Shown here: piece after piece, positions 7,356-39,893 of the stretch
Layout of the letters: each line of letters begins with the position of its first letter
Position numbering within the stretch: position 1 is the stretch's first letter
From: Pseudisothecium myosuroides
Lineage: Eukaryota > Streptophyta > Bryopsida > Hypnales > Lembophyllaceae
NCBI GenBank assembly: GCA_951799445.1
Contig: OX637291.1
Coordinates: forward strand, 1,676,501-1,740,500
Direction: 5' to 3'
DNA length: 64,000 nucleotides
Notes under the pieces: model-generated
Databases searched by the model: none
Told to the model about the DNA's origin: nothing
What the model saw: the letters and a program-made list of their open reading frames with translations, nothing else
Position numbers and translations under genes: made by a program

Positions 7356-7644
7356 GTCACCTTCTAGCTACTACTGTACATTACATCCGCTTCTATGTAG
7401 GACTGTACATAATTGCCGCTCCTAGTACTGTACATATGATCGGCACACGCTCTGTTACCAATCCGTTCAGCCCAAGACCTGCACATACGGATACACAGAG
7501 TTAGTGAAAAGTCGTTTCTGCTGCAACTCCCCTGAAAAGCTCTCAATTTTGAACTAGTCTTGGAATGTGAGCTCCACATTGTGAGCCCCTCCCAAAAAAA
7601 ATTAATTTTTTTTTTTGAAAAAGCAAATGTGACTCCACTGTCAA

Positions 7645-8382: not shown

Positions 8383-8596
8383 ACTGTCAATGTGCATGAG
8401 TTCTCTTACACCATATCCATCACTCACACGACATTCCTTCTCACATCACAAAGGACGGTGCAAGCCTGCAAACAAAGTGAATTCCATACAGACAACTCGC
8501 TCAATTTGCATGCACTAACAATTTTGAAGCACTGGACTGATTGTGAGAAAGGTTTCACACAAGGACAGTGGTTTTCCACATTCTCACCTCAGCGTT

Positions 8597-9946
8597 TCAG
8601 ACGTGCATGTTTCGTTCAAGCGCCAAGAACACTCCAAGATCGTGACGCTTTGCAACACCCTGCGCCACAGCCACCTCATCTCCAATTATTTCATGAGTCT
8701 CTGGTATGTCGGAGTCAGTGTCCACGACCTCAGCGGGCAGACCCTCTATATGCAGCATTTGAAGAAACCGCTCCACGTCGTCCTGCGACTGACCCAAAAG
8801 AACATTGTGCAAAATTGCACAGGCCAGTATGACATCAGGCATAAAAGAAACTTCCAAATTAGATTTTACCAATAGCTCTCGGAAAGTTTGCTTTAGTATG
8901 CCAAAGGTATTCTCGACTACCCCGCGTCCTCGACTCAGTTTCCGGTTGAACAAGGCTTCAACAACGGGAAGATTGCCTACTCGTCGATTAGGCACCAGCA
9001 ACCACGACATAAGAGGGTATCCAGAATCCCCAAGCAAGTAGGGACTGAAGCTATGAAAGGTGACAGACGGATCCCACAAGCTAGTGTGCATTCCCTTGTA
9101 GTAAAGAGAGGAACATTGCAGACAACGAGCATCGTTGGTTGAACCAGGCATTCCAAGAAAAAGGTCTGTGAAGCGTTTCCTGCAATCCACTACCGCCTGG
9201 CAATTCAACGTATACCCACCCGACTTGAAGTAGAAGTAGTCTGCAGGATCAGACTTAGGTTTATGTATTGAGACATGTGTACCGTCAATGGCACCCAGTA
9301 CTCCAGGTAAACCACAGAATTTTTTGAAATCAGCTTCCGTTTCAAGAAGCTTTTGCCCTACAGGCCAAGAAATTTCTGATATCAGAACCACGTTTATGGC
9401 TTGCACGACTTCTCGCACCATCAGGGAAACAGTTGATCGACCTACGGCAAACAATTCACTGCACATTAGTAAACTTGCAGCGTGTGTCAACTTGAAAAGA
9501 GCGCAAGCGACACGGACAACTACAGGGATTGCCAACCGATACTTGGTGTCTTTTTTCCTCATGTAAGGATCCAGAAGCTGTGCCAATGAGAAAACGGCCG
9601 GTTTAGATATGCGGAAAATTTGGAGCCACCGTTGTTCATCATACTGGCCCAGAAGAAAGCAAGAGAACCAGGTCGTAGAACGAGGCAGGACCCAGTAGCC
9701 AAGATCAGCATCGAACATGGAGAAGACGTTGCACAATCTGAAGTTGTGCAACGCAGCTTGCGTGAACATCTCCGAGTCAAAAATTGGCAGCATGTCGGTT
9801 TGGCGGATGTTGTCGAGGAGGGTCTCAGTGTTGTCCTCACTTTCTTCTTCCAGTGCCTCATCGTGTGCTCTATTCGAAGTGAGCAGGAGCAGGAGCACGG
9901 CCGACGCTACAGACATGATGTCTGCTGGATTGGAAGCGAAATCCAT
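8597..9946 (-). CDS. HARBI1-type PIF/Harbinger transposase (copy A)
   Basis: This 449-residue nuclear DDE nuclease cuts and rejoins the element ends. The frame is uninterrupted. A helix-turn-helix-like region lies around residues 144-185. The catalytic acidic residues are visible: D221 in AIDGTH, D272 in GSTNDAR and E345 in RGVVENTFGILK, with the family motif GDSGYPL at 305-311. The length fits the family (roughly 350-450 aa). I chose the ATG at 9946 because it aligns with the start in copy B. The sequence just upstream (CAG then GTCATCC) suggests a 5'-leader intron acceptor. With all three acidic residues present, it could be catalytically competent if transcribed. Confidence 0.93.
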   Translation of the reverse strand: MDFASNPADIMSVASAVLLLLLTSNRAHDEALEEESEDNTETLLDNIRQTDMLPIFDSEMFTQAALHNFRLCNVFSMFDADLGYWVLPRSTTWFSCFLLGQYDEQRWLQIFRISKPAVFSLAQLLDPYMRKKDTKYRLAIPVVVRVACALFKLTHAASLLMCSELFAVGRSTVSLMVREVVQAINVVLISEISWPVGQKLLETEADFKKFCGLPGVLGAIDGTHVSIHKPKSDPADYFYFKSGGYTLNCQAVVDCRKRFTDLFLGMPGSTNDARCLQCSSLYYKGMHTSLWDPSVTFHSFSPYLLGDSGYPLMSWLLVPNRRVGNLPVVEALFNRKLSRGRGVVENTFGILKQTFRELLVKSNLEVSFMPDVILACAILHNVLLGQSQDDVERFLQMLHIEGLPAEVVDTDSDIPETHEIIGDEVAVAQGVAKRHDLGVFLALERNMHV

Positions 9947-11075
9947 GCTTGGATGACCTGATTCGTTAGGGGAAAAAAAACCTTGTTACAAAATTCAAGA
10001 CCAATTACGTGAAAAAAACAAAACTTTCCACTAACAAAGCGTACAGGACACCTACAGAGAACCAGATGTTTCTTTCTCACAATGCATTGGCGGACGATAG
10101 TTTTTAAAATAAACTGACTCCAATGGCTAGCAAAAATGTGCCAAGTACGAATTAGAAAAGTGCGGGAAGGAAGAAGGCAAGGCACAGGAAACTCACGCGA
10201 TTACAAATCTGTTTCTCGGAAGGCTGAGTCGACATTGTCGGCGGACGGAGCACCTGTCTGAAGCAGTCGCAACGTGAAATGCTGGGACGCAGAAATTGTG
10301 CTCCAATTCAACGTAGCGGCCGAGCAATTCTGGCAATACGAAGAGAAACCCTATGACGTTAATGTAAAGCTGTGACAAAAGCTATTGAAACGGTGAAAGA
10401 CAGGTTCGGAAACCAGATAAAAAAATCCTGCCTATGCTGTGCCTTAAACCCTGAACAACACGGGGGTATGAACGCAGTTGAGTCGTCAGCGACCAAGAAA
10501 AAATCACCTTCTCCGATCGTCTTCGTTGGTGCAATGTCGTCGCGCAACACAGGCGTCAACAAATGGGGGGAAAAAGAAAACACGTTCGCCTCTTAACGGA
10601 CAAGTGCACCTCCAAATGAAGAACGTCGCAGCTTAAAAAGAGCGTAGAAACAGACGCGGCAAATTGCTGAAGGCGTAGCTCCAAATTACGATTACCTCTT
10701 CTCTCAAACGTAGTCGGATTGCTTCAAAAAATCTCGCGCCAAACTCCTTGAACACAGAAACCCCAAAACCCCAGAGACACGGAAATAGACACCAGTGAAA
10801 TGATTGCGCGGCGGGGGCCACATCCACCGTAAGCACTCCCTTCTGGTGTGACCCCCTCTTGTGAAACGGTCGGTTCTCAGTGACGTGTCACTCACTTTCC
10901 TTGAATCTGATGTCCTGGTTTGGACAGCGAGCACCATACTCGCAGTCAGAGGTCCGAGTATTAGTTTTTCTTTCTACACGTCATTCCCTTCCCTACGAAG
11001 AAGGCTCGTTTTTTTGTTCTGACTCACTTATCTTTTAGCACCCACTTGTCCTTAAGCCCAGGTCTACACAGACCA
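9947..11075 (-). other. Leader and subterminal region of Harbinger A
   Basis: No coding frame is evident between the transposase start and the right terminus. A block around 10806-10855 (GGGGCCACATCC, then GGTGTGACCCCC) is conserved at the matching place in copy B (about 53561-53605). It is probably the transposase promoter or 5' exon plus subterminal binding sites. Confidence 0.55.
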
Positions 11076-17710: not shown

Positions 17711-17743
17711 CATTAGAAAAGTTTTGGGGTCACTGAGAGGCCC
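17711..17743 (+). repeat. Left terminal inverted repeat of the giant element
   Basis: It starts CATTAGAAAAG and continues TTTTGGGGTCACTGAGAG. It pairs with 35776-35808. The bases just outside (GCATTAAAG) do not repeat beside the right end. Confidence 0.75.
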
Positions 17744-18172
17744 CCTGAGCCCAAAATTGGGCAGCTGTTTTGAGCGGGAAACGTACATGACACATCGAAA
17801 AATCGTGCTGGCACATAAGGTGCCACTTTGCTGCCTTGTTGAGTGGTTTGTAAAGTTCGCAGCCAATCACTGAGCTCCAGTCCTGTGCTTGGGTACAGTA
17901 GACAACATACATCCGCATGTGTGATTAGACGTACTCTCAATATTTTAGTAGAGCCACGGCCTTTGAAAAAGATTAAAAAAAACAACGTTGTCCTAGCCAG
18001 TCTGAATAAACAAACTATAGATTTATAGCGGGAATCTGATGACATGGATTAATGGTGCACAAGCTAAGTATGTAATCATCCTCTTTCCCCCCCAGGTGTC
18101 TTTGATATTTAGTTTCAAAAGTTTTGAGGGGAGAAGTTGTTTTGCTGTAGCAAGTTACTTTGCTGTAGCTAG

Positions 18173-19402
18173 ATGTCGAAGCCACTGGATGAGGTCCATA
18201 GTGTCGTGCTCCACAACACTGTGGATGCACGTGGTAAGTATATTCCACTGCGCGTAGAAATTGGATCATGGGTGACATTGAGAGCAGCCGAAACAGATCC
18301 ATGGTCTCAGGATGCTAGGGTTCATGGTGTTGACACATTTGCTGGAGCATGGAAGGCCCAAATTTTGGAGTTTAGGTTCAAAGTGGAGGTGCAACGGGGG
18401 AAAAATGTACTGCAGCTTGATGCTATCAAGGTGCGACATGCTTATCAGCGGCGGCAACTACAGCTTGATCCGGCGACTTTTGCCAACGAGCCACGTGCAT
18501 GCAATCTGCTGAATATGTCCTACTGGGACGACTGGGTTGATCCAGCGGCAGTAATAGATGTCATTCTTGTCGTACATCATGAGGTTGGAGAGGCTGCAGT
18601 GCGTAATGGCCGTAGTCATAAGCAGCTGTTAGATAATGGTACTTTTTTTCTGAAAGCCATCTATGTTCCTCAATCTGGCACTTCCTTGTATGGTAGTCTA
18701 GAAGAATTGCCACTGCCGGCTCTTGATGATCCGCATTGGCCCCTCCCGGACATGCACACCTCAGAGGCTTTCAGAGCTAAGCTTGCGGTGGACATTGCGG
18801 AAGCAATGAAAGGGGGAACTGGTAGTAAAGCGGCACATGTGAAGTGGTTCATGCCTGTGCACGTCATGGTGGACTTCTTTGCCGTAGCAGACAACGTACG
18901 TCGCACTTCCACGATGTACATCATCAAAGCACCATCAACTACAGTTCTGAATAGTTTAATGGATGCTGGATGGGACGAGAAGTTCCAAACAGGGCAAGAC
19001 GTGCTTAAGTTGACCGTTAGCAAGTCTAGTATGGTTTTCCGCTATTATTTAGCTCGACAGGTGTTGTATCTCAATTTTCAATATGTGCGCTACAGGAAGG
19101 AGGGTAGTGTTTGGGTGCCCATCGATCAGGGTTTAGGGTATCAGCACATGATACCCATCACAGTTGAGTTTGGAGGAAAAGAGTTGCCCAGTTTTGAGGT
19201 TGGTTCACTTTGGCTAGTTTCGCACATTCGAGAGGAGATCTCAATTCTGCTTCCGCGAGAGGTCATCCCCGAGTACTACAACCTTGTTGTGAAGCGCCCT
19301 CGTTTGGCTGATTTTAAAATCAATGCTCGATCTGAGCGAAGCACAGAAATCAAAGCGTTTTTGTTGGGGAAGTCCAATACCCTGAAGATAGTCCCATGCT
19401 GA
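18173..19402 (+). CDS. Giant-element ORF1, unknown 409-aa protein
   Basis: This is an uninterrupted 409-residue frame with balanced composition, clearly GC-richer than its surroundings. I do not recognise the family. The N-terminal ~100 residues contain GSWVTLRA, HGVDTFAGAWKAQILEF and AIKVRHAY, a beta-rich pattern that could be a small chromatin- or nucleic-acid-reader fold. The middle has RTSTMYIIKAPSTT. The C-terminal ~80 residues (LWLVSHIREEISILLP, EYYNLVVKRPRLADF, ending NTLKIVPC) have a strand-helix-strand rhythm reminiscent of a beta-grasp domain. Both fold ideas are inference. No signal peptide or membrane segment is seen. It is the gene nearest the left end and faces RING protein 1. 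Intact, unlike the transposase. Confidence 0.8.
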   Translation: MSKPLDEVHSVVLHNTVDARGKYIPLRVEIGSWVTLRAAETDPWSQDARVHGVDTFAGAWKAQILEFRFKVEVQRGKNVLQLDAIKVRHAYQRRQLQLDPATFANEPRACNLLNMSYWDDWVDPAAVIDVILVVHHEVGEAAVRNGRSHKQLLDNGTFFLKAIYVPQSGTSLYGSLEELPLPALDDPHWPLPDMHTSEAFRAKLAVDIAEAMKGGTGSKAAHVKWFMPVHVMVDFFAVADNVRRTSTMYIIKAPSTTVLNSLMDAGWDEKFQTGQDVLKLTVSKSSMVFRYYLARQVLYLNFQYVRYRKEGSVWVPIDQGLGYQHMIPITVEFGGKELPSFEVGSLWLVSHIREEISILLPREVIPEYYNLVVKRPRLADFKINARSERSTEIKAFLLGKSNTLKIVPC

Positions 19403-19852
19403 TGCTTAATTAGCTCACATCTGGTTTAGGCAGAAGCTTGCTGTAGACATTCAGAGGAGGTTTAAGAATTGCAAAACTGTACTTGATCTCGAAAGAGCAT
19501 TTGCAATTGTAATTAAATGTCTACATTTGTCTCTTCTACTTGATTTTGGAACTACATTTGTAAGCATTTGTCTCTTTGTTTGAATGAAGCAGATTACGTT
19601 GCTTTAGCATTTCAGCCATCATCAGTAAACAAAAGCCAAATTTTGTCTCCTAATTTGATACATTGAGTTTATACAGATTGACCACATTGAGTTCATACTA
19701 CACCATTTATTGCTTTTAGTATAGTGGACACTAAATGCCAGTTCATACACCAATTGTGAAGTAGACAATTAGTGTAGTAATAAAAACTATACACCAAATA
19801 CTAATCACTACAGTATTAGTGAGTGCTTTTGGTTTAGTAGTTGGCATTTAGT

Positions 19853-20373
19853 ATTTGGCATTTAGTCTAATGATATATATACTATATCCTAGGAGGTCAA
19901 GTTTGGCTAAAAATAATTCTAAAAATTGCTTCCAAAAATGTTTAGATATATGGTTTAGAAATATCATAAAGGAATTTGTTTTTGAAGAATATTCTATTTT
20001 TAGACATCTATTGAACTTCTATTTTGGAAAAAAATAATTATTCAGCATAAGAGTGCCGAAACTGACCCTAGAGTACGATATACATTTGGAAAATAAAAGT
20101 TTTGGAAAATGAAACTTTTGAAGAATGAAGCTTTTGGAAAACGAAATTCTTTGAAAATGAAACTTAAAGAAACTGAAGCTTCTAGAATATGAAATCTATA
20201 CTTTAGGACTTCAACTTTAAAAATATGTACCCTATGTAAAAGCATTCTTTTAAAAAGTGATTTTGTAAGTTTTGTACTTTTAATTTCACTTTCGGGTACT
20301 GGCCTTTTATTTTTTGTTTCTCTTACTTTCAATTTTAGATAACTAAATTTTACCTTTTATTTTTATATTTTTT
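19853..20373 (+). repeat. Direct repeat, copy 1 of 2
   Basis: It starts near GGCATTTAGTCTAATGATAT and ends in a CTAAATTTTACCTTTTA block. Copy 2 follows at 20639-21150 with scattered changes and a missing ~30-bp block. It is non-coding, with many AAGCTTTTGGAAAA-type motifs. Confidence 0.8.
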
Positions 20374-20638
20374 TCACTATATTTTTTTTATTTTTTTACA
20401 TTTAGGTGAATGACTTTATTTTTACATTCACTTATAGGTGACTCTTTTATTTTGACTTTTATTATTAATAGGTAACTAACCAATGATCCTAAAATCAATT
20501 TATGAAAATTAGTAGAAATGCTACAACCTGCCCTTTCAAGTAGTTGAGTAAGCCTATTCAAGCACGTTATATGTGGAGGTACCTAGATCATACCGGAAAT
20601 ATCCGTGACATATTTAGATGATACACACGTAGCATTCA

Positions 20639-21150
20639 ATATTTAGCATTTAGTCTAATGATATATATATCGTATCCTAGGGTCAAGTTTGGCTAAAAAT
20701 AAATCTAAAAATAGCTTTCAAAAAATGTTTAGATATATGGATTAGAAATATCATCAAGAAAAAAAGAATTTTGAAGAATATTCTATTTTTAGACATTTGC
20801 TGGACTTCTATTTTGGAAAAAATAATTATTCGGCATAAGAGTGCCGAAACTGACCCTAGAATATGGTATACATTTGGAAAATAAAAGTTTTGGAAAATGA
20901 AATTCTTTGAAAATGAAACTTAGGGAAATTGAAGCTTCTGGAATATGGAACTTTTGAAATTTTTACTTTAGGACTTCAACTTTAAAAATATGTAACCTAT
21001 GTAAAAGCATTCTTTTGAAAAAGTGATTTTGTAAATTCTGTACTTTTAATTTCACTTTTCGGTACTGGCCTTTTATTTTTTGTTTCTTTTACTTTTAGTT
21101 TGAGATAACTAAATTTTACCTTTTACTTTTATAATTTTTTTTTTAATATT
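20639..21150 (+). repeat. Direct repeat, copy 2 of 2
   Basis: Same order of blocks as 19853-20373, including CATAAGAGTGCCGAAACTGA and ACTTTAGGACTTCAACTTTA. The divergence suggests an old duplication or two insertions of one family. Confidence 0.8.
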
Positions 21151-21618
21151 TTAATATTTTTTAAGAGAAGGTAATATCTAAAGTAATGGTACGGAAGCAT
21201 CTACTATTGTGCTGGACAATGTATAGCAAGAGAAGTAGCAACAGCAGCTTGACATGACACAAAGTTCACTTCTTTTCTCTCTTAAAAAATACTACAGTTG
21301 TCAAGGCGGGCAAGCTGCAGCATGTCTCAAAGTACAAGATGAGTTTCAGCGAAAAAATGGAAGCTTTTTTCATCACACCTGAAAGCACATCACATTGCAA
21401 TCTCTAGCATGAGCCCCTGCCCAAGAAAGTCAACAGTCTTTTTAAACTGGTCAAACCTCTTGATCTCCGAAACAATCACTAATTCTTATAATTGAACTTG
21501 ACAGCATCCTCACATTAGTCCTTCCACTTCACATTTTACGGTTACTTGTGTCATGCAATGACCTAATTCGCCACATTCTTTCTTGCAAATTATTCATCGT
21601 TTGAAGATTCCTGGTTGT

Positions 21619-22182
21619 CTCGGGGGGTGCACTTAGTTCTACTTCAACAAACCACGTGCGAACAAGTGGTTTCTAATAAACTATAATTTCAACCTAAAAT
21701 TTTGAGCATTGTTTAATAATGACTATAGGTTTCTATTGCCAAAATTTCCAACTCAAATAAAAAATGAAATGATTTCTAGAAGAAGTTGAAAATGAACTAA
21801 AATGGTATGAATTTCAACTCAAATATTTATAGAGAACACATTTAGATGACTATTGCATTAATATTCAACTCAAAATGAGCTTTCAATAGAGATTTATTTT
21901 CAAGAATTTTTTGTTCATTTTTTAGACAATTTTTTCTTATATAATATAGGGGTGTGAAAGTTATTTTTCAGTTCTACAGTGTATCTTTTTACTTCAAAAA
22001 TTTGTAACTAATTATGATGAAGAAATAAAAATATCAATAATTCAAAACATAAACTTTCAAAGTAGGAAAATGTATTCATATTTTTTTTATTTGATTTTAT
22101 TTAAAATTCAAAAAGTAAATAGGGGGTCCAAAGTTTTGTTCGCACGTGGTTTCTTATGGACACTCTAAGTGACCCCCCCGAG
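21619..22182. mobile_element. hAT-like MITE nested in the giant element
   Basis: It starts CTCGGGGGGTGCACTTAG and ends CTAAGTGACCCCCCCGAG. A perfect 8-bp duplication CTGGTTGT flanks it (21611-21618 and 22183-22190). Internal sequence matches the MITE at 7645-8382 in reverse orientation, but with the 174-bp segment present only once. No coding capacity. Confidence 0.87.
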
Positions 22183-22732
22183 CTGGTTGTCCGCCAATGA
22201 ATAAGGTCATTCCAGGGTTAATCAACTTCTTTGCTTGATTGTTGTAACACATTCCACGTGTCTTTGATCCGTGGTCACGCTGCCCAATACCAACAACTTA
22301 ATCTGATTCAAAAAATTAGGTACAGAGTGTACGTACCATTTAGATATATATTTCAGCTGCTACAGCAACCATTCCTTATACTAATATGCCTAGGTACAAA
22401 TTGTTTCACGTACTTAAAGAAAACTTTGACTCATCTACATAAACAAGTTTAACAAACGTGTTAATCAACATTTACAAGAATACAACATTAACAGTCTGAA
22501 AACAAAGTTCTATACTTCATTGTTTGCAAATTAAGCCTTTGAGTGTCATAAGGTCTAGCACTATGTTCACAATACAAGCAACGATGTTGCTAACCAAGCT
22601 GCAGATTAAGCTAATGTTGCTAATCAAGCTGCAGACTCTTTGTCACAATCAGCTGTAGGCTCTTTGTCACAATCAGTTGCAAGCTCTTTGTCTTCAGCGC
22701 AACTACAAAGGAAATCAGGCACTGGAATGTTG

Positions 22733-24208
22733 TCATCCTTGCTTGGTGGCTCGTAAGAAGCTCGAGAAGAAATTACAGTCGGTATGGTGGTGTGGCTCCA
22801 TCCGTCCCCCAAATTGTGCCACCCACGGGCCTGCAAGATGAATTGGTGATGAAGCAAGGTGAGGATCCTTGCACTGCTTGCACTTGTAATCTTGACCTGC
22901 CATCAGCTCCGCCACGCATGGAGCATGCAAAAAACACCCACAAGATGACAAAACGGCGGCTCTCCACACAAATCCTAAACCACAGTAAGCACAAGTGTCT
23001 TTGCCTTCAATTCCTAAAGGGGGAACAGATGATTGTATTGGATAATCAAACGGCCTCGGTGTTTGGAGTGTGAGCAATTGTCGCCTTGCTTTCGCAACCT
23101 GTGCTTGAGCGCTCGTCAATGCAGCAACAGCCGCTTCGTGTGCTGCACGCTGCGTTGTCACATCTGACTCCAGCTGCAACACCTCCGTCCAAAATGCAGC
23201 GTTTGCCTGTCGCAAAGAAGCAAGCTGAGTTGACAATTCTTCCATTTCGGCAGCTTTCTTAGTATACTCAGCAGCTGGAGCGCATTCACGGAGAAGACGT
23301 TTTGTCTCTTTTGATGCTGCAATGTATGCAGCATTAAGCGCGTCCTCGACGTCGTCATCTTCTCCCTGCATCTTGGCTAAGGCGGCGTCTAATTTCAGGC
23401 GTGTCTCCTGCAGAAGGGCCGCTGTCGCCTCCACTTCATTGGCGCGGATGCTCTCCTCCTCTTGCGCAGCAGTAAGACCTTGAATGGAGGCAGGTGCACC
23501 GAAATCGTTTGCTGCATTGCTTCTGCAAGATAATTCTGAAATTATCTTGCACAAGCCTTCGACTTGGCAGCGCGTTGCCACCGGCCCGAGCTTCTGGGGA
23601 TTACGGCGTTGATTCTTCATTCGATGCGCCATGCGAGACAGTGCTTCCGCGCACCAGTTCACAAGCTTCTGATGAACGAACGTGGCGTAGTACGCCTTCA
23701 AGAATCGCAAAGAGTAGTAAGCATTGTCGGGTTTATTACCGTAGACCTTGAAGTATTGTTGCCCGAATACCTTCAACTGTGTCAGGTCTGTGCACCTCGC
23801 CAACTCGTATTGATTTGGTTGACTGCCCGCCTTCCACACGTCGGTGACTTCCTTGTCGGTGATGAAGGGATACACCTTGGAGACTTCCTTCACTTGCGGA
23901 CCTTCGGCACAGAGACCCACCTGCATAGTGAAGAACTGGTGCCCGTACTGTGCGTCACGCCCAAGTAGCATGGGTGCTGCGGCAACCATACACTCGTACA
24001 AATTGTTTTGGATATTCGCGAGGTCGAACGGCTCATCAAACTCCTCCGTGGAAATCCCCCGCACAGTCAGTGCCTCGCTCTCACTGGCACCTGAAGAGGA
24101 GTCATCCTCCGCGTGATCATCTGGTGGAGGCTGAAGCATTGGCGTTCGGCTACAGCTCCCCTTCCGCTTCCGCTTCCGCGTCTCCTCCTTTTTCTGTCGT
24201 GACGTCAT
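22733..24208 (-). CDS. Giant-element RING-like coiled-coil protein 1
   Basis: This 491-residue frame is uninterrupted. Residues 6-17 are strongly basic (KKEETRKRKRKG) and look like a nuclear localisation signal. About 50-230 is a domain shared with the paralog at 29175-31465 (FDL..I..NL, AP.LLG..A.Y, FF, GL). About 250-380 is alanine/glutamate-rich and probably coiled coil. The C-terminus has a RING-like finger: C406, C409, C423, C425, H428, C431, C443, C446. The CGCFLHAPC centre is C-x-C-x2-H-x2-C, i.e. a RING-H2 arrangement with the first histidine replaced by cysteine. RING proteins are usually ubiquitin E3 ligases, but ligase activity is inference. A PWVAQFG motif follows, also conserved in the paralog. 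The gene converges on ORF1 and appears intact. Confidence 0.8.
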   Translation of the reverse strand: MTSRQKKEETRKRKRKGSCSRTPMLQPPPDDHAEDDSSSGASESEALTVRGISTEEFDEPFDLANIQNNLYECMVAAAPMLLGRDAQYGHQFFTMQVGLCAEGPQVKEVSKVYPFITDKEVTDVWKAGSQPNQYELARCTDLTQLKVFGQQYFKVYGNKPDNAYYSLRFLKAYYATFVHQKLVNWCAEALSRMAHRMKNQRRNPQKLGPVATRCQVEGLCKIISELSCRSNAANDFGAPASIQGLTAAQEEESIRANEVEATAALLQETRLKLDAALAKMQGEDDDVEDALNAAYIAASKETKRLLRECAPAAEYTKKAAEMEELSTQLASLRQANAAFWTEVLQLESDVTTQRAAHEAAVAALTSAQAQVAKARRQLLTLQTPRPFDYPIQSSVPPLGIEGKDTCAYCGLGFVWRAAVLSSCGCFLHAPCVAELMAGQDYKCKQCKDPHLASSPIHLAGPWVAQFGGRMEPHHHTDCNFFSSFLRATKQG

Positions 24209-25417
24209 AGATAATCAACTGTAGTAACTACAGATCAGGACAAAACGGTGTACTTCTCGAACAACAGGCTGGCCAGTGAAAATAGAATGAGCTAGAGTGG
24301 GGTTCAAAGACAACAAGCTGGCTGAAACAGAAAGACCTATGGCGAGAATGGGAAGTTCCAAAACAACAAGCGGCGTAAGCAAAATGACAGACGGACATGG
24401 CCAAATTTGGCTTCATCATTTCTCAAATGTTAAGCAAGCCGACTTGACAGTTTGATGGTGTACATTAAACGGTGCAATTAAGGTCTGAATTGAAATGCTA
24501 GCAATTACAATTACACTCAATACACTTAATTTATAATTTGTTTAAACAATTGAATTTGGTATTGAAACTATTTTTTGTTGTAGATTCCATTTAATTTGCA
24601 TTTATTCTTTTGTTAATTCTTTTTTATTTCTTGTCTTTATATGTCAACCCAAATCTATAACATAATTTTACATTGTTTTGGTTGATATATAGAACCATCT
24701 AAAACTTCAATTGGTTCAAAATGAGGTATTTCTAGAAGCTATATACAAAAAACACTCAAAATTGCCATTTCTATTGCAAAGCAAAAAAAACTTTAGAAAT
24801 TTGTTTTTTTTTGCATATCTAACAGAGTGACATTTGTTGATTGAGTCTCAAGCCTCAATTTCACATTAAAAAGCACCTAGGGGTCACATCAAATTAGTCA
24901 AAAAAATATTGGTAGATACCATTTCATTTTAAAGTATGATATGCATGCCTATTATCGATCCTTGTTACAATTTTTTTTTAATACTAAAAATTTAATGAAA
25001 GAGTAAAACATATTTGTAAGCAATTTGAAAAAAAGGCATACCGAAGTGCAATGATTTCTTCCAATGTTTTCTTTATTGACACATTCATATGCTTTCTTTC
25101 CCCACTTATACTCATATTTTAGATGTTGATATTAAGCAAAAATGATATTGGATGCTCTAACCATACCAGAAGCCTTGATCTTATTGTAAGAACTTTCTTC
25201 AAAACCAAGAACAAAAAGGATTTAAGTGAGTTGTTTAAAAAGATAAAGGAATTATTTGGACTTAGAATTCTTAAATTCTTAAATTGGTCTTTCTTTTCAA
25301 AAAGAATAATCAATCACAGTAGTATTCTAAAGACATTCCTATATTTAAAAATATAGGGTATGATTTTTTTTTGCTATTTGTACATTTTTGAAATTTGAAA
25401 TTCAATAACTTTCATAA

Positions 25418-25550
25418 ACTTTGAAATTCAATAACTTTCACACCGTGAGGGCCAAATGCCACAAAACCAAGCCTGTGCACCCCTCCTCTCCAAGGGCTTT
25501 CCAACGATACCAAACACGCGACCAGGGGACTCATGCGACTGGGGGACTCA
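25418..25550 (+). repeat. Dispersed repeat, copy 1
   Basis: Shares TTGAAATTCAATAACTTTC, CACACCGT, GGTGCACCCC-type and GCTTTCCAACGATA blocks, in the same order, with 26188-26340. It is GC-richer than its surroundings and non-coding as far as I can see. Confidence 0.7.
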
Positions 25551-25672
25551 AGTTTCTGGTCCAAACCCATCAAGTTTGGGGCCCAAACCATCCAACTTTG
25601 GGCAGAAAATCATCAAGTTTGGGGCCAAAACCTATCAAGTTTGGGGCCGAAACCCATCAAGTTTCGGTCCTA
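25549..25672 (+). repeat. 22-bp minisatellite, about six units
   Basis: Units of about 22 bp have the form CAAGTTTGGGGCCAAAACC plus AT, with base changes between units. The array follows the end of the repeat that starts at 25418. Confidence 0.85.
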
Positions 25673-26077
25673 GAAAGTACCAGTGTTGGCTCAAAAATTA
25701 TAAATTTAGAATTCAAAGGTCTTTTACTTGAAGTTTACTTGGAGTTAATTTATTTAATTTGTCTTTAAAGTGTTTTACTTCTAATTTAACTTCACTTGCT
25801 TTCACTCTAACTTCACTTGCTTTCACTTTAACTTCACACTTGCTTTCATATTAAGATCATTTTTTTCCACTTGAAAATAATTCATTTCCTTTTACATTAA
25901 TATGGTTTTTTTAAATTTAAGTTTTATTTTTACTTTAATATATTGTTCTTTTACATTTAGAAGGACATATATGTTTAATTTTTTGTATTTATATCCCTCC
26001 TAATTGTGCATTATTATTCTTTCATTCATGTTTACTAGGATGGCCCTGTGCCATTCGCCCAATTTTCATCCACCCTC

Positions 26078-26125
26078 GGTTCCACTCCTGGTTCCACTCC
26101 TGGTTCCACTCTTGGTTCCACTCCC
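26078..26125 (+). repeat. 12-bp tandem array, four units
   Basis: GGTTCCACTCCT is repeated four times with one or two substitutions. Confidence 0.85.
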
Positions 26126-26187
26126 TGTACCAAGAACGCCACCAAAATCAAAGTAAAAGTAATTTTCTAATTTTTTAATCAATAAAT

Positions 26188-26340
26188 ACTTTGAAATTCA
26201 ATAACTTGCACACCGTAGCTCCAAACGCCACGAAACTAAGCCGGTGCACCCCTTCTCGGCGAGAGCTTTCCAACGATAGGCAATACAATGTGTATCACAC
26301 TGCGTTATGGAAGCACGCGGCCGGAGGACGCATGGTCTGA
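26188..26340 (+). repeat. Dispersed repeat, copy 2
   Basis: Partner of 25418-25550. It begins TTGAAATTCAATAACTTGC and runs past GCTTTCCAACGATA to GGAGGACGCATGG, then diverges. Confidence 0.7.
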
Positions 26341-27059
26341 GAGATCTCAACGTAACAAAACAAACAAAACAAACAAATAAACAGCCTAATTTAAGGTATA
26401 GATTATTATATTATTCCATTTTTTAAATTCCAAATGTTATGTTAATTTACTTTTTCAATTAATTAGATATCAATTATTTTTTCAATGAATTAAATCTCAA
26501 TTAATAGAAAACTCATTCTTACAACAAACACCTAGTGTCTAATATATTATAAATGTTTGACAAGAATTTTTGAAATAAAGTCAACAATAATCATGCTCCC
26601 CTTGTAGTGTTCGAAGCAGGACAAAGTTTTTTTTTTTTACATTTATAGCCAAACTGGTGGCACAACTTTGTTGGAGCCTGCTAATTTGGCAATACAATGT
26701 GTCTAGGCTAAAATCATATAAAAGCAAATTTTCTTCATAAACATAGGTTTGTACATCATTTTTTGGTGGAGTCCTCCAAAACAAGCTTCAATCTAGGTTA
26801 AACATGTATAGTTAGTACGTGACTACAAAAAAATATAGATTATATAGTGTTTGACATTTAGTAGGAAAACTCGCAATCTTGCATTGTTAACTGTTGATAT
26901 GCAGTCAGATTTTTTTGCCCTTTTTTGCCCCCTATTTTTTATTAATATCACTCTTTAAATTCACATGAGCTAAACCTTAAACCCTAAAAGCCCAAGTGTC
27001 ATGAACGGTAAAAGTTAAATATAAGATTGTATATATATGGTCCCCTGCTGACCTTTTAA

Positions 27060-28490
27060 CCCCTAAAAGCCCAAGTGTCACGAAATGGCAATTTGAAAAT
27101 TTGGTCAAGTTCCTATGGAGTCAATTTCTAACATTCTTCTTCAAATTTTTAATTATAAAAGGGTATTACTAAAACCTAAGTGGGAGAATAATTTCTTTCT
27201 AAATCCAAAATTATATGAAAAAGTTATAGGGATTTGAATTTCAAATTGGGAGAGTGGGCACATTGGATACATCCAAATTTTTTTGCTAGGATAATCTATT
27301 GAATATGAGAATTTCAATACTAGCAAGTAATATTATTTCTTTTCATATTTTCAAAAAAACCCCTTTGTCTTTAGTAAAAAATAGGGCATTAACTCAAGTC
27401 AAAGATTTCCATGTTACTCCACACATTGTCGGGCAAGCCATCCAAAAAAAAACTTCTTTTCCACTCATAAAACTTAGAGATTTTTGTTTTTTTACTTTTA
27501 TTTTTTCCACAATAATATAAGGTGTAAACCTTCATATTGAGCGTTTGGATTATCAATCTAAAACATATTAAGTTTGTAAAAAACTAAAACTTGAATTAGC
27601 AATTTTTGAACCTCTACTACTAGCACTGTTGATTTGAATAAGCCTACACCCATTTTCACTACCTCTAAAAATTGGTGTATAAGGAACTAACATCATCTTG
27701 AACACAATGGTAATGGATTTAGACCTTATGTAGTGCAAAAATTTGACACCAGGTAAAGGAAAAGTCTGCTGATCCACCAAACGCAGGGCAGAAAATGAAC
27801 CATTTGCTTGCCTTCAAACACTATAATCATTCAATCCGTGCGGTTAAAGTTCATGAAATTTTGTAGAGACATCAATAAAAAAGTCTTTATTGAGATCCTA
27901 CGATTAGATGTAGAAAATAAAAGGTTTTGTCTCCTTTTTTAAGCATTGTACTAGAACGGAGCAGTTTTGAAGTGTTTTTGGTGCAAAAACGCCCCGGAGT
28001 GGCAACTAACAATACAAAGATTAGGGCTTTCTTAACCCTTCTAATGTACAAGAAGGGAATAAATTATTTTATTAAGTAGGTTATAGAAACATAGTAAGAA
28101 AGAAGACATTGAGAGGATTTGAATGGTATCATTTTTATACTAATCATAAAAGTTTTAGGTTCTCAAAAATCATTTTAAGAACTTATAATACAAAGAATTT
28201 CTCAAATAGGTAGCACCACGCAGACCCCCCGGTTCATTTTTGAAATTATTAAAAATTATTATTTCTTAAATACTCTTCTCAAAAAAAATTCTAAAAATCC
28301 TAGTGTTAAAATTTCATTATTACCTATAAATCTTATAATTTCTTATAATTTATTAGAAGTTCTTTTGAGGTTATAATAATTTCTTAAATTTGAAACATAC
28401 AGCTCTTTTTACTCTCAATCTTAAAACTCTCCCCCTTGCACATTATACAGGAGTTGCCACCCCGGGGTAAACGCCTTGGGCCTTTAGGGA
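27060..28490. mobile_element. TTAA-flanked piggyBac-like element, with nested insertion
   Basis: TTAA at 27056-27059 is followed by CCCCTAAAAGCCCAAGTG. The right end GGGCCTTTAGGGA is followed by TTAA (28491-28494). About 1.43 kb, of which about 0.48 kb (27992-28467) is a second nested element. The segment before 27992 matches the family at 41176-42095 (GATCCTACGATTAGATGT, then GTGTTTTTGGTGCAAAA). It is non-coding. Confidence 0.65.
27992..28467. mobile_element. TIR element nested in the TTAA element
   Basis: The ends are CCCCGGAGTGGCAACT and AGTTGCCACCCCGGGG, inverted copies with one mismatch. (A/T)AAACGCC lies on both sides, offset by the shared C run, which suggests a 7-8 bp duplication as in hAT. 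Removing it restores the GGCAAAA..CCTTGG end seen in other family members. No coding frame. Confidence 0.65.
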
Positions 28491-28500
28491 TTAAAGGTTG

Positions 28501-28613
28501 AAAATTATCCACTATGATTCATTGAGTGAACTTTCTTCATGAGGAGTACATGTGTTGACTTGCCTCAATGTGGTAAGCATTAATCAAATATTTTACTAAG
28601 AACATCTAAGGAC
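28501..28613 (+). repeat. Direct repeat, copy 1 of 2
   Basis: The blocks CCACTATGATTCATTGA, TGAACTT and AACATCTAAGGAC recur in the same order at 28935-29048, about 434 bp downstream. This looks like an old local duplication just upstream of RING protein 2. Confidence 0.75.
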
Positions 28614-28934
28614 AAGAGACTCCTAACAATCAGAGCTTTCCTTACATGCAACAATACTTGTCCTGCTTTCAAAATCAGGGACGTTTACTTAAAAAAATTG
28701 GCATGACGTCATTGAATGGGAGAGGATTGACAGATGCTTAAAAAAATAAAATTGCCCATGTCCAATTAGCAAGGCCAAAAGTTACACCCCACATATATTT
28801 TTTGGGTCCAGTAATCTCCTCTTCTCAATCAAGGTGTACATATTGTTGTATGATGAGTACATTTTCTAACCCTACAGAAATCATGATGGATGAAAGATGT
28901 GTACCAAGAATACGAAATGGGTGGGAGAGGTTAT

Positions 28935-29048
28935 GAAATTACCCACTATGATTCATTGATTGAACTTACCACATCAAGAGTACATTTTGTTGACTTATCT
29001 CGATGTTTAAGCATTAATAATATATCTTACTAACTAGCATCTAGGGAC
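28935..29048 (+). repeat. Direct repeat, copy 2 of 2
   Basis: Counterpart of 28501-28613 (CCCACTATGATTCATTGATT through AGCATCTAGGGAC). It ends about 130 bp before the start codon of RING protein 2. Confidence 0.75.
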
Positions 29049-29174
29049 ATGGACTTCAAGCCATAAGTGCCATTCCCGACACTTGCTGTTGTCAACCTCT
29101 ACTCCTTTGTTGATGCACGCGCTTAGGCTCCATAGTTGACATCTGCATCCTCCACACCTTTGCTGTAGCAAGCC

Positions 29175-31465
29175 ATGACAATGGGAAAAACTAAGAAACA
29201 ACACAGAGTGGCTCTGCCACAAGTCGATGAGATTTCCAGTGAGACTAGCAGCGATGAAACTCCTCTCACTTCTGCGGCACTAACTCCTTCTATTTGGGCT
29301 GAGGCTTTTGATCTTCGAGGAATAGGAGAGAATTTGAGGAAGCAGTTAACCACTGTAGCTCCATTTTTGCTTGGTGACGCTGCGTACTACAGCTTGGAGT
29401 TCTTCCATGAGGTAGGTGGACTTTCGATGAAAGGTGTCCCATTCAAGCGCTTGAAGGAAGAGCATAATCTCCCTATGGAGGCAATTGTTGGCACCTACCC
29501 CCTGAATAGGAATGAGAACCGCCATCCGCTTAGGCATATGGATGACGAAGTTGCTGCTAGAGCACTGAGGATGTATCAACACGTTTATGGGGGTGCAGTC
29601 CCGGACAATGGGGAATTTGGGACTGCTTTTGTGAGAGGCTTGATGCTTGACGCCAAGAATTGGAAGATAAATTGGGCTGAAGGTGCTGTTGAGATAGCAA
29701 AGGTAAGTTCCAACTTTTTGTAGCAGAGACTTTGAGCACAAATAGCTGGTCCATTTATGTATTTGCTTACTTTTGTTGATTCCAAGTCCTGATCATTTGC
29801 TCTAACTCGTTCATTCGTAGTCTTTTTAGCATTGTTTGACTTTTGTTGATGCTTATGCAGAGCCGCCTCAAAAATCCTGGTACCAATCCAGCCAAGCTCA
29901 CTCCACCATGCTTGCGGGAGCAAATCTAAGCCATGTTGCACGTGTTCAGGGTAGTGGTCGACAAGGTCATACGGGAGAAAATCGCGGCAATGAAGACAAT
30001 TTCCGAGGGAGGTGTGCCGCGTTCCGGCGGTATTGTGCTTCAGCCACGCGCTCCACAGGCTGTCATGGAAGCACCGCTCCGCAAATCACCACTGAAGCCT
30101 ACTATAGTATTGAAGGGTCTAGCTGGAGCACCACTCCACCAATCACTGCCTAAGCCTGCTGCAGCATTGGCAAAACGTGAGAAGAAGCCCTTTGAAACAC
30201 AACCAGAAGCCACACTCCAGAAGCCAACACTCCAGGGAGCTGCAAAGTTGATGAAGCAACGTGAGAAGAAGGAGGCGGAGCTACTTAAAATCAGAGATCA
30301 ACTAGAGCATGCAGAAATGTCGTTGGCGATGCGAGAGACCAAGAGGCAAGAATTGGCGCGCACTGAGCAAGCGAAGTGGGAGGAGTTTGCAGGGATCCAA
30401 CAGTCGAAGCAAGACATGGTCTTGGACGACCGCTCCAAAAAGATGGTAGATATGCGCTTGCGATCTCTCATGGAGGATGCAGTTGCTGTGTCTACCAAGT
30501 TGTCAACTTTGGGCCCTGAGATTAAGGACTGGACTACAGTCACTGTCGATTTGCGAGCCCAGTTGCTTCCGCTGCAGGATTCCATTAACAACATTAGCGC
30601 CAAAATTGACATCATGATTATTCTAGAGAGTTGTATCTGCCCACACCAGTTTTATTCAGCATTTCCTGTGAACCGTGAAGAAATGGTACCGTTGAAGCAG
30701 CACCTCCCATGCGTAGGATGCGGACGCTATTGGGCAGAGATGGCTTTAGCGAACCTCCCTTGCGGATGTCTTCTTCACCCGATTTGTTTGTTTCAGGTTG
30801 CTCTATCCTCCAAACCTTGTTGTCCTGGCTGCAATGTCAAGCCATCTGGAGGATGGATGGGACAATGGGGCTTTAAATCCGACATTGCTTCAGAAGAGGC
30901 TGCCGTTGCGGCTGTGAACAAAGAAGGATGGGCACCTCCATTGAGTCGCATTGAGACGAAGCTGCAGAATATTAAACGGAAGATTGAAGCGCCATCATCT
31001 AATTTTTCCTCCTCCAAGCGAGCATGTCACCCACTACACAAGGCGACTGCACCCGACGTTGAAACTACCGGCCACATCGATGCGGCAGCTGATATTGTAG
31101 CAACCGTTGCTGTACAGGTTGTCGACTTTGGAGCATCGCCTTACGAGGTAATTGGTCGCACTGAGGTCGTGCTGGAAGTTGGCGATAATGTAGCAAGTGG
31201 CACTACGGTTGTAGCAGCTGGTTGTGAGACTGGAGTTGTTGCTGCGAATGATGTTGCCAAGGATGTAGCAGTTGGGGACGGTGTCGAAGCTAGTGTCAAC
31301 TTAGCAGGCCACCACAGTGCAACATCCGGCCCAATGCCACCTAACTATGCAGAGCGAGAGTTAGTAGTTGAAATTTCACCTGAAGTTAGACCTTTAGATT
31401 ATGGAGAGATCCTGAACATTGCAAATGCTGCAGCAGCAGAAGCGGATCCCACTACTGCAACATGA
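29175..31465 (+). pseudogene. Giant-element RING-like protein 2, one in-frame stop
   Basis: Two exons: 29175-29702 and 29861-31465, with donor GTAAGT and acceptor TTATGCAG. The joined reading contains a single in-frame TAA at 29927-29929. Homology with RING protein 1 runs across the exon join (RLKNPGTNPAKL against RMKNQRRNPQKL), so the stop lies inside coding sequence. The N-terminal domain matches the paralog (FDL.GIGENL, APFLLGDAAYY, FFHEVGGLS). Exon 2 has a long charged coiled coil, then a RING-like finger at about 30710-30830 with the same CGCLLHPIC centre, followed by GWMGQWG. A Val/Ala-rich tail ends the protein. It could still be expressed from a downstream ATG (29933) as a C-terminal piece, or the stop could be skipped by splicing. 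I favour a decayed copy. Confidence 0.7.
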
Positions 31466-31862
31466 AGCAACCATGTTCATTAAGCTAGTTAAAGGCTAGC
31501 ATATATAGACTTGGAAGACTTGCTGCAGCTAGAAGATCAATCAGCAGTAGACTCTTTGGCTTCTTAGCACATTGCCATGTGCACATCATGTATCTTTTTT
31601 AGTGCAATAGAAGCGAAAAGCACCTTTGTTGGCATATTTATGTACGCCATGAATGTCAATATCTGTATGCACTTTGTCATGAAATTGTATAACAAACACA
31701 ATATAGTTGGTGGACATGCAGCTAAACAATTGGTCTTCGATGGTGGTGTGAGCTGCTTGGCTCGGCAAACCATTACTTATTTATTGATATTTTGGTAGAA
31801 GTCATCATGTGAATAAGAATCTTTAGCATTTGTATCTTTGAATGAGAATTTTCCATTAAAAC

Positions 31863-34800
31863 TCAAATGATATCAGTTACATCCTCTACGCTAGTTTGGG
31901 AGTCACTACAGCCTGCTTCAGTACTATTAACGGGCTCATCTATGTCTGATGCCTCAACAAGCACATATCTACTGCCCTGACGGGTACGACCCTCACGCCA
32001 TGCTTCACTGGCAGCCCCTGCCCTAGACGCATGCCACGCGTCTCGCCTACAAGCTATACCTGCAACGATCGCTGGATCAGGCAATGTCTGCTCAGATTCA
32101 AGAATCCTCTTTTGCAACTTTGGAGCATACCTATGTTGTATGTTTCTATACCAAAACTCATATTGCTGCACAATAACACTTGTCCTAGCTCTTGTCCCTC
32201 CATGTTGTCCATGGTACTGGCTAGATGCTTTAGCAGCATGGTGCGATTTCTCCATCCCTTGACAGTTCCAAACAGACAAACTCCCATATTTTTCCACAAA
32301 CCAAGGTCCGTGCTTCACCAGAACATGCTGCAAGCATTGAGAGCACAAGCGGACACTTTATTAAAAGTTAAATATACTATATGCAATGGAGATTTTGCTG
32401 CAGCAACGATCACATGGAGGCTATGTCTAAAACTTGCAGATCTTTGCTACAACAACAATCACTACTCAAGCCTAGGTCAAGGGATGACTTACAATGTAGT
32501 GTGTCACATGACCCTCACCATGGGCAGCAATAAATGCCCTTCCAAAACCCTCAATGATCGATTTACAGTTCCTCCTTTGCTCATTTGTTAGAACCAACCC
32601 TGTGAGTATGGCTGCAGCGCCTCGAGGGTCTCCCACACTCGCCTGCGTTTCACCCTTGCTTGATCGTTCTCCAGGTTGTTCGACTCTGAAGCAAGCACAT
32701 CCTTCCAGACCTGATCATTCCCAGACCATGAACTTGGTCCAAACAATTTGCTTGCTAATACTCCTCCTATGCTAGGCTTCTGAACCACATTCCCTGTTTT
32801 GCCAGATAGCTTTGGGTCCTGCTTCAGCACACAATTAGATCCCTCCACGCCAATTGCAGACATAGTTTTCTCCATAGCATCTATAGCAACCGATCTCCTC
32901 TCTTCATCTTGCATGTTCCAAACAAACATGTTGTGGAGATGGAGGACTTTTTCACTGATGCGGACCAACGCATGCAAAGTGCATATATGAGTCCTGCTAA
33001 GGGGAATTGGTAGGATTGGCTTCCATCGAGGATGTGTGTTGATGTCACACGGTGGACCTCGAATGTTAGGTGCGAACAATCCTCCTTGCCATGAACCTTT
33101 TCCACGAGAAGAGGTTGCTCGCTCTGCTTCAGCCGCAGTGCAAGTCCTCAGACGTTCGTGTTGTTGCTCACAATATATGCAATTCATTTTGCAGGCCGGT
33201 CCATGCTGTAGGCCGTACATACACTTGATCGTTTTCATATCCGCGCTTAAGTGCCACTCCACTAGAAAACTCCCATGGCCCGGAACTTCTAGATGTTGCC
33301 CATCAGATTGTGCTTTGATAATTGCCGGGAAGTCAGTTTGCTGAAACACCCACTGGAGGATGTCATACGATTCTTTCTCCACCTGGAAGCAACCCACTGG
33401 CCAAATCTCTTGCTCTGATTGAACTGAAAAATACCTCTCATCATTTTTTTGAATATTTGGGTCTAGAGCTCGATTTATGAGTGTCAGACTCACTCTTTCA
33501 AACTTCTTCCCATGGATCACCTCCGCCTCGTCCAGCTTCAGCACAAATATCAGCGGCCCACCATTGCACTCTGTAATGAATTGAAGTTATGGAAATGAAG
33601 TTCACTAGACTCTGCTGCAGCAAATGAAATCCAACTTAAGGCACTTTTCAAGACTCACCTTCAACTGTGATGTTATAGAACAACACCATCGATCGCTGAA
33701 CAACTTCGATATTCGCAAAGAGATTATTATTGTCGTTGAGAATGACCTCTTTCAAATTCCTAACCACCTTTCTATTGACCCTCACTTCTGGAATCACTCG
33801 CCGGCCATCAATATGGAAGTACTCTCCAATAAACTGCAGAAGCTTACTGTTCATTTTTCTTCTCAATTCTGCCAGCCTTGTACTAGAGGGCAAAAGACCA
33901 TGCTTCAGCTCAGGTGATACAGATGTGACTCGATGCTTGATAACCTTGCACAGTGCAAAGTATCCTCTGTGTGTTATATTGTTGCCATCACACACTCCCA
34001 ACATTACCTCCCTACTCAACTCCTTCTGTATCTTCTTAAAAACAGTCTGGGTTGCTGCCCCATTAGCTTGACTCATTCTAGGTTGCTCCCCCAGCCTTAG
34101 AGCCTCACCTGCGGACAAAACACTTGCAATAGCACGTGCTGTAGCAGTCTGAGAATCTTTTGCTCCAACCCATCGTTTCCTCTCTCTGCGTGCTTTATTT
34201 GATTGCTGCAACTGACTGACAAGTTGCGGTTGAATATGCGCTCGTAATATGGTGCGCCGCCGTTTAGCATTCCCCGATCCTACAAAGCCAATAGAAATAC
34301 CAAATCCAAGCATAGACAATCACCATCAAATACTCATGGAATTCATCTTCAGATTCATAATTTCATTAAGCATAGAACTGGCCCGAAGACAAAAAAGAAC
34401 ATGCATGGGCCAACTATATAGTACGATCACAACTTAAGCATGAGCCACTTAAGAACCTCGTGCAAGTTCATCGACGTTCTTGATGCTTTGGATGCGAACA
34501 CGCTTGCGGAGTCCTCTTGGAGTTTCCACCATGGATTTGATCTGTGCTTGTAACTTCTCGTATGTTGCCTTAGATTGTAACAAATCCAACTCCAAAGCAC
34601 TGATCTTCTCTTGGCTTGCTTGAGCTCCTGCAACAGCTGACATCCTTAATGCTTCACATGTAGCTTCTAAGTTTCCTACTTTGATTTGCAGCTGCGCACG
34701 TTCCTGAACAAGCGTAGTTGTAGTGTTTGACAAACTTTCAACTACACCTCGCTGGACCTCATATTCCTGCTCTAAACCTCAAACTGTAGACTGCAAGTTC

Positions 34801-35105
34801 AATATTTCTTGAACACCGCTCACACGTTTAATGTATCCAAGCATACCCTGCTCGCCGTGGCATAAGAACTCTAGATATTCTTTTGTAGTGCGGAAGCTTG
34901 GAGGTGAATTGGTAGCTGGATCCACTGGATATAAACCACCATCAACCCAGAGGTCAATGTGAGTTTCACCAGCTACCCTCCTTGCCGCAAAGGTTAAACG
35001 ACTGACTTGTTCATGCAAGAGCGTGCCTCTCTTCATAACTGGAGCATAGCTAGAAGTCAACTTGACAGCAAGAGTATAAGTATTTGTAATATCTCTAAGT
35101 GCCAT
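31863..35105 (-). pseudogene. Giant-element DDE-transposase-like gene, broken
   Basis: Four exons on the minus strand: 35105-34457, 34279-33659, 33570-32493 and 32327-31863, all with GT-AG borders and consistent phases. Exon 1 includes a coiled coil. Exon 2 starts with a basic NAKRRRT segment. The catalytic candidates fit an RNase-H-fold DDE enzyme: Asp in KLDEAEV (33532-33530), Asp in WHLSADMKTI (33241-33239), a Cys cluster ACKMNCIYC just after it, and Glu in NCQGMEKSHH (32252-32250), preceded by KYGSL. This order recalls long transposase-like proteins dispersed in several eukaryotes, but I cannot name the superfamily. Lesions: in-frame TGA at 34781-34779 and a missing base near 32600, after which the frame continues as LTNEQRRNC. 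It is probably inactive. Confidence 0.65.
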
Positions 35106-35775
35106 ACTGAAGCAACGTTAAAATCAGTGTTGTCTACCAATCTGACAAGAAAGTATCACTGGAAAGTGAATCTAGGACACGTGATACTAAATGTCAAATC
35201 AAGTCATTGCAAAAATATTGTGCTACAGCAGAATTCAGGGAAACAATTAAAAAGATTTTGCTACATCAGAGGTCAAAGGTTGACAAAAACTTGGCGCATG
35301 CCAAACATGCCACATGCCATAAATCACACATCTTCCCGCCAATTTATTTTGCCCTTTCCCGCCCTACTAAAGCTGAAGTGGCATTCTTTTTTTAAAGATT
35401 TTATGCTCCAATTCATTTTATACTATTTGTGAGCTGGTACAGTAAAGCCTCATTTGCATATTTTATTGATTCAATTGTTTGGTACATATGATACTAAATG
35501 GTTTTTCTTTAGACTGAAAGGACGGCCAAAAAATTAAAAAATTTGTGTGCTAGAAAATGCCATGATCACGCAGGCATGATCTATTATTTTTTAAGCATGC
35601 CATCTTGGATTTGAGCATGCCACATCAGAGAGCGCGAAGGCATAATCATGCCGTTTTGCTTGGGTGGCTGGTCCTTTCGCTGGACGATAGGGACGACCAA
35701 CAGTTTGGGCAGGCTTAATGTACCACTGCCCAAGCAAGAATATGCTCAAAGGTACCATGCCCGAACTCCCTTAAA

Positions 35776-35808
35776 GGGCCTCTCAGTGACCCCAAAAATT
35801 CTCTAATG
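35776..35808 (-). repeat. Right terminal inverted repeat of the giant element
   Basis: Read inward it starts CATTAGAGAAT and continues TTTTGGGGTCACTGAGAG, pairing with 17711-17743. The bases outside are AATGTGACA. Confidence 0.75.

Positions 35809-37622: not shown

Positions 37623-39893
<2,271 letters not shown>

Follow-up and report, generated by a model that had tools for sequence, protein, structure and literature searches.

A four-gene moss transposon with CATTAGA ends, a predicted RAG1/Transib-like transposase and insertion without target duplication

V(D)J recombination in vertebrates began with RAG1, which cuts antibody genes in animals. According to two reports (PMC7204232, PMC9435367), published RAG-like (RAGL) transposons carry RAG1L and RAG2L genes that are often convergent, together with CAC-type ends and 5-bp target duplications, and this duplication length is invariable in protostome RAGL and predominant in ProtoRAG, Transib and RAG. 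PMC9435367 also gives 39 Transib-like proteins in plants, so that the occurrence of a RAG1-type protein in a plant is in itself no novelty. Here, an 18-kb element is described from the moss Pseudisothecium myosuroides, lying within a 64-kb stretch of contig OX637291.1 (contig C5 below, C5:1676501-1740500; hereafter the window) in a genome of 388 Mb and 222 contigs. An earlier note made from the letters of the window had proposed a DNA transposon of unassigned type with four genes; the multi-gene transposon was borne out by the comparison of copies below, while the type proved assignable on structural grounds, since the transposase is predicted to be RAG1/Transib-like.

For the ends of the element, a 22-base core was searched across its own genome in both orientations with up to 3 mismatches, and 12 sites were obtained (six on each strand), with 0 for the reversed pattern. 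Five inverted pairs, spaced 17.5-25.6 kb, account for ten of these sites and include the pair in the window; the remaining two are unpaired and differ from the core at 3 bases. The 33-nt arms in the window are complementary at 31/33 positions (94%), as the two mismatches counted in the earlier note had indicated, and CATTAGA starts all 10 ends of the five copies (E1 to E5, Table 1). When pieces of E1, E2, E4 and E5 were compared with the window, the alignment stopped exactly at 17711 and 35808, mostly at 96-98% identity; that of E4 runs 3 bases further on one side, where chance likeness of the E4 flank accounts for the extra bases. In the two end regions compared, 1.2-2.2% of positions differ between copies, and the copies remain 98-99% alike at their ends; of the 243 changes private to a single copy, 179 are G>A or C>T, the pattern expected from cytosine methylation. 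The gene set is shared by all five copies, and empty sites spanning the junction were found for E2, E4, E5 and a 1,937-bp unit, showing a real multi-copy mobile unit with exact CATTAGA...TCTAATG ends. Smaller units with the same end type (4.4 kb, 1.9 kb and 618 bp) are also present. Segmental duplication was ruled out by the unrelated flanks and the existing empty sites.

The absence of a target duplication, which the earlier note had regarded as its weak point, was followed up by looking up the joined flanks of paired units across the genome and aligning them base by base. The empty-site junction of E2, which is inserted in a repeat, equals left flank plus right flank in all four fetched sites, and those of E4 and E5 (one site each) equal left plus right flank with 0 bp gained or lost. 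Precise insertion into pre-existing sequence, with neither duplication nor loss of target, was therefore shown at three sites, indicating that the absence of duplication is a property of the element. At their target sites, nine paired units were compared: E1 to E5, two members of a second family (10,062 and 4,415 bp), and units measuring 618 bp and 1,937 bp. Two identical flanking bases (AA) were seen in E1 only. The empty sites are without CATTAG, which ruled out that the CATTAG end conceals a TA or TTA/TAA duplication.

The transposase is encoded by gene 4, whose four exons are separated by GT-AG introns present in all five copies and whose gene model agrees with three homologues of 857-900 amino acids (aa). 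Its product has an N-terminal coiled coil followed by an Asp-Asp-Glu (DDE)-type core, and KLDE, WHxxxD, CxxC (placed after the WHxxxD Asp, as in RAG1-type zinc sites), HxCTLH and QGME are conserved, giving D-D-E with C2/H2 zinc residues, all but the Glu assigned by pattern. The plausible triad of the earlier note was upheld to this extent, the presumed catalytic residues being invariant wherever they could be aligned (Table 1), and by the offset of the structural alignment the Glu would correspond to RAG1 E962. In a fold model built from a homologue of gene 4, residues 244-801 of the model match RAG1/Transib, and a wide gap separates this match from that to the next fold; P element and Hermes were matched as well, with lower Z. 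Across its catalytic core, the homologue is thus predicted to adopt the RAG1-core fold. Among transposase and recombinase families, Pfam-A listed RAG1 alone for gene 4 or its homologues, and the one transposase homologue of named origin is from the fern Adiantum nelumboides. This fern homologue and 58 matches in the genome to the chlorophyll a/b-binding family, the best of them in open frames of 220-234 aa, point to a photosynthetic eukaryote, probably a green plant; the family also matched one control, a cyanobacterium. The E3 copy of gene 4 has an in-frame TGA as well as a 1-nt deletion of its own. An 8-bp insertion is found in exon 4 of E4 and in none of the other four copies; it might be a footprint left when another element was excised.

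The four genes lie inside the element as two convergent pairs, and the G+C content per kb is about 0.45-0.52 in the gene stretches versus about 0.27-0.37 between genes, confirming both the layout and the G+C-richer genes described earlier. Gene 1 has 32 conserved homologues. Pfam searches with its 21 members gave nothing credible (best E 0.05, unrelated families, neither RAG2 nor kelch), and no match to PDB sequences was obtained. Genes 2 and 3 share an N-terminal domain, a coiled coil and a RING-like motif, with Pfam RING matches below the cut-off, and a model of the RING-like protein (predicted local distance difference test, pLDDT, 59; predicted template-modelling score, pTM, 0.32) was too poor for a structure search. 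Gene 3 was read in E2, E3 and E5, its start not being located by script in E1 and E4. Rfam at gathering thresholds gave 0 matches in the window, as did PADLOC on four open reading frames (ORFs).

Table 1. Coordinates of the element, its genes and its copies (window positions unless a contig is given)
Feature	Position	Strand	Remarks
Whole element, copy E3, 18,098 bp	17711..35808		homology to the four other copies starts and stops here
Left terminal inverted repeat, CATTAGAAAAGTTTTGGGGTCACTGAGAGGCCC	17711..17743	+	first seven bases identical in five copies
Gene 1, single exon, 409 aa	18173..19402	+	no known family; elsewhere the usual convergent neighbour of the transposase
563-bp insertion, E3 only	21620..22182		absent from the other four copies; flanked by the 9-bp duplication CTGGTTGTC
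Gene 2, ~491 aa	22733..24214	-	conserved N-terminal domain, coiled coil, RING-like motif CxxC..CGCxxHxxC..CxxC
Gene 3, paralog of gene 2	29175..31465	+	exons 29175-29702, 29861-31465; one in-frame TAA in E3
Gene 4, predicted RAG1-like transposase, ~935 aa	31863..35105	-	exons 35105-34457, 34279-33659, 33570-32493, 32327-31863
Presumed first catalytic Asp codon (KLDE)	33530..33532	-	invariant in 9/9 aligned proteins
Presumed second catalytic Asp codon (WHxxxD)	33239..33241	-	invariant in nine
Presumed catalytic Glu codon (QGMEKSH)	32250..32252	-	invariant in the four sequences reaching the position
Right terminal inverted repeat, read inward CATTAGAGAATTTTTGGGGTCACTGAGAGGCCC	35776..35808	-	from arm pairing and five-copy comparison
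Copy E1	C3:34089777-34107361		inverted end pair
Copy E2	C3:36486127-36511740		inverted end pair
Copy E3 (window element)	17711..35808		inverted end pair
Copy E4	C5:19165990-19183517		inverted end pair
Copy E5	C2:45563744-45586249		inverted end pair

To place the genes in the whole genome, paralogs were collected with the transposase (query P0001; 79 of 439 candidates scored), gene 1 (102 of 333 candidates scored) and gene 2, the counts for the first two being lower bounds. At least 90 transposase matches merged to at least 78 loci after pieces of one gene were joined, at least 110 gene-1 matches merged likewise to at least 99 loci, and 48 gene-2 matches gave 32 RING loci after matches in the five copies and split pieces were removed. 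Among the 73 transposase loci outside the five copies, the nearest gene-1 paralog was convergent at 56 (median distance 3.3 kb, from hit start to hit start), on the same strand at 1 and divergent at 3. A listed transposase lay within 50 kb of 68 of the 99 gene-1 loci, and random transposase positions (300 trials, the size of contig C11 assumed to be 17 Mb) had a gene-1 locus within 50 kb at a mean of 2.4/78 (maximum 9). RING-like paralogs were within 50 kb of 14 of these 73 transposase loci, while 28 of the 32 RING loci had a transposase or gene 1 within 50 kb; in a RING set of 36 hits, 22 were within 30 kb of a transposase. The 10-kb element at C2:16260242-16270303 has gene 1 on the left, a RING gene in the middle and the transposase on the right, between CATTAGA ends. 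Together with the neighbour counts, this layout indicates that the usual core is the convergent pair of transposase and gene 1, with RING genes as a less common third component. Of the cargo named in the earlier note, two RING-like paralogs and an unknown protein, gene 1 is no chance passenger but normally the convergent neighbour of the transposase. The five elements were the only places where close copies of genes 1 and 2 were found; their occurrence away from these ends, which the earlier note would have taken as evidence against a transposon, applies to divergent paralogs, often together near other transposase genes. At C4:1842183-1868039, two pairs of transposase and gene 1, about 12 kb from each other, mirror one another in order; one element seems to have been duplicated here in inverted orientation.

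The element is best explained, with a probability of roughly 0.8, as a cut-and-paste DNA transposon of a RAG1/Transib-related superfamily, of which no description was found in searches of the literature on RAG-type, Transib, plant and duplication-free transposons. The transposase, with its coiled-coil N-terminus and RAG1-type core (D-D-E, C2/H2 zinc site), would bind the CATTAGA ends and excise the element, and both ends would then be joined to directly opposite target phosphates, either by blunt attack or with a stagger that is later removed, where RAG/Transib use a 5-bp stagger. A second subunit, in the place taken by RAG2 within RAG transposons, may be supplied by the gene-1 protein, and the RING-like pair of genes 2 and 3 would be a rarer addition that might act as a ubiquitin ligase or a dimerising factor regulating the complex or the host. 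The predicted fold places the element with RAG1/Transib, its ends and lack of target duplication disqualify it as Transib or RAGL, and it is close to a new superfamily. A wider suggestion, which we put at somewhat under even odds, is that green plants have their own large two-component RAG-type superfamily, with gene 1 as an unrelated or unrecognised counterpart of RAG2, CATTAGA signals and blunt, duplication-free integration. If so, the convergent pairing of RAG1 with a partner would predate the animal RAG lineage or be independent of it, and the RAG fold would be compatible with another geometry of strand transfer. A RAG1-fold transposase inserting without duplication, present in dozens of copies in a plant-like genome and with a convergent neighbour gene of its own, would serve as an outgroup when tracing how the two-gene RAG design arose and as a way to test what determines strand-transfer spacing. 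Elements of this type would be missed by annotation based on target duplications or Pfam.

Several findings weigh against this interpretation, and those concerning the type of transposase come from the profile searches and the model. The Pfam RAG1 match had E 0.0054 and 15.3 bits versus a cut-off of 25, in 1 of 9 members; PDB profile searches to E 10 returned no RAG1 or Transib chain; PF12940 had no match over the genome, though it also matched 0 of 14 controls; and the modelled homologue is 32-37% identical to gene 4, with pLDDT 71 and pTM 0.57. Such profiles that fail to reach RAG1 or Transib would also be expected if gene 4 belonged to another eukaryotic DDE superfamily without a solved structure (CACTA/Mirage/Chapaev, Academ, Kyakuja/Zisupton or similar) that shares only the RAG1 fold, RAG1 being the best match as the closest one with a structure, and both the D-D-C2-H-E plan, common to several such superfamilies, and the lower-Z matches to P element and Hermes are in keeping with this. 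However, Pfam-A has families for several of these superfamilies, yet RAG1 was the sole transposase or recombinase family listed, the RAG1/Transib match covers the whole span given above with a wide gap behind it, and the ends are not CACTA-like, while those superfamilies duplicate their targets; membership in one of them is considered unlikely.

The remaining points against a RAG1/Transib-related transposon with gene 1 as its partner concern gene association, ends and junctions. Gene 1 was more than 50 kb away or absent at 13 of the 73 listed transposase loci, and 31 of the 99 gene-1 loci had no listed transposase within 50 kb. The latter, together with the RING-like genes near only 14 of 73 transposase loci and the end type shared by the 4.4-kb, 1.9-kb and 618-bp units, could point to a giant composite moved in trans, a simple CATTAGA transposon with captured host genes in which genes 1-3 are passengers; this is the least probable of the alternatives, since gene 1, with its conserved homologues, is convergent at 56 of 73 divergent transposase loci, and 28 of the 32 loci of divergent RING paralogs (25-39% identical) have a transposase or gene 1 nearby, so that the association looks old. 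CATTAGA ends (at most 1 mismatch, contigs C1-C3, 100 of 173 end sites listed) were found at 6 of 40 transposase loci (random mean 0.4/40) and at 3 of 37 outside the five copies, with one further such locus on C8; none was present in the 1.1 kb searched at one two-gene locus. No ends were found for pairs A and B of other transposase lineages, where the homology ran to the edge of the compared stretch (A) or broke at a point without the CATTAGA motif (B). With so few transposase loci tied to CATTAGA, ends common to the whole transposase family are unsupported. Present activity of the family is likewise unsupported, gene 4 having at least one stop or frameshift in each of the five copies. At the junctions, one identical flanking base was seen in 6 of the 9 paired units, above the expected quarter; E4 and E5 belong to these six, and there the shared base is not a duplication because their empty sites equal flank plus flank. 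The joined flanks of the 1,937-bp unit are one base longer than its 2 empty sites, the surplus being either an added G or a 1-bp duplication with a substitution. This extra base would suit end-joining of excised ends, comparable to the reinsertion of RAG signal ends, instead of catalysed blunt integration, the missing duplication then being a matter of repair, and RAG-type excision ends can be joined by repair; but the empty sites of E2, E4 and E5 are base-perfect, showing neither filler nor the small losses that end joining would be expected to leave, which makes this route improbable.

Other sequences were observed within and around the element. Extra insertions are present in E3, E2 and E5; the 563-bp insertion of E3 has G+C-rich inverted tips and is a younger nested element outside the transposon proper, perhaps a Mutator-like miniature element. 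A 22-bp tandem repeat with TCAAGTTTGGGG units lies inside the element at window 25548-25664, and in another lineage a similar repeat, AGTTTGGGTCC, is found upstream of the transposase; these repeats could be binding sites. Of the 100 listed end sites, 25 are of one type, CATTAGATGTTTTTTGGGGTCTCT, with no paired end among the sites listed; they represent a high-copy subfamily whose far end may have diverged. Outside the element, the window holds two paralogous Harbinger-type modules (6028-9985 and 49215-52634; three aligned blocks 72-74% identical), each with a Myb/SANT-like ORF convergent with a DDE_Tnp_4 transposase ORF, as well as the C-terminal part of an aldo/keto reductase (39516-39893) and part of a zinc-binding dehydrogenase (56786-57262), both likely host genes.

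Among known systems, a Harbinger identity was ruled out, as gene 4 had no DDE_Tnp_4 match while the two Harbinger transposases of the window did. A viral origin was rejected as well (viral_contigs, 48 pattern matches and 0 confirmed relatives; BFVD, none at E<=0.001). P element and hAT (Hermes) transposons, which make 8-bp target duplications, gave a much weaker structural match. CACTA (EnSpm) elements have CACTA/CACTG termini and a 3-bp duplication, in contrast to the CATTAGA termini and 0-bp duplication here, and a CACTA reading based on an inner CACTG motif was rejected because the boundary of homology is some 20 bp outside that motif. From Transib the element differs in that no sequence-level match was found, in its end motif, in the lack of a 5-bp duplication and in being multi-gene. 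Spy (PHIS), as described in PMC4482050, resembles the element in inserting without target duplication, as at the three sites here, but has a PIF/Harbinger-related DDE transposase and inserts within AAATTT, neither of which is matched here (0 of 9 junctions fall inside AAATTT, which abuts the junction in E2 only). With RAGL/ProtoRAG the element shares the RAG1-core fold (by model), the conserved D, D, E and C2/H2 residues, a transposase convergent with a second gene, and terminal inverted repeats; it differs in having CATTAGA instead of the CAC-starting ends and 0 bp at three sites instead of the published 5-bp duplications, a partner without RAG2 sequence match, an extra RING-like gene pair and a length of 18 kb.
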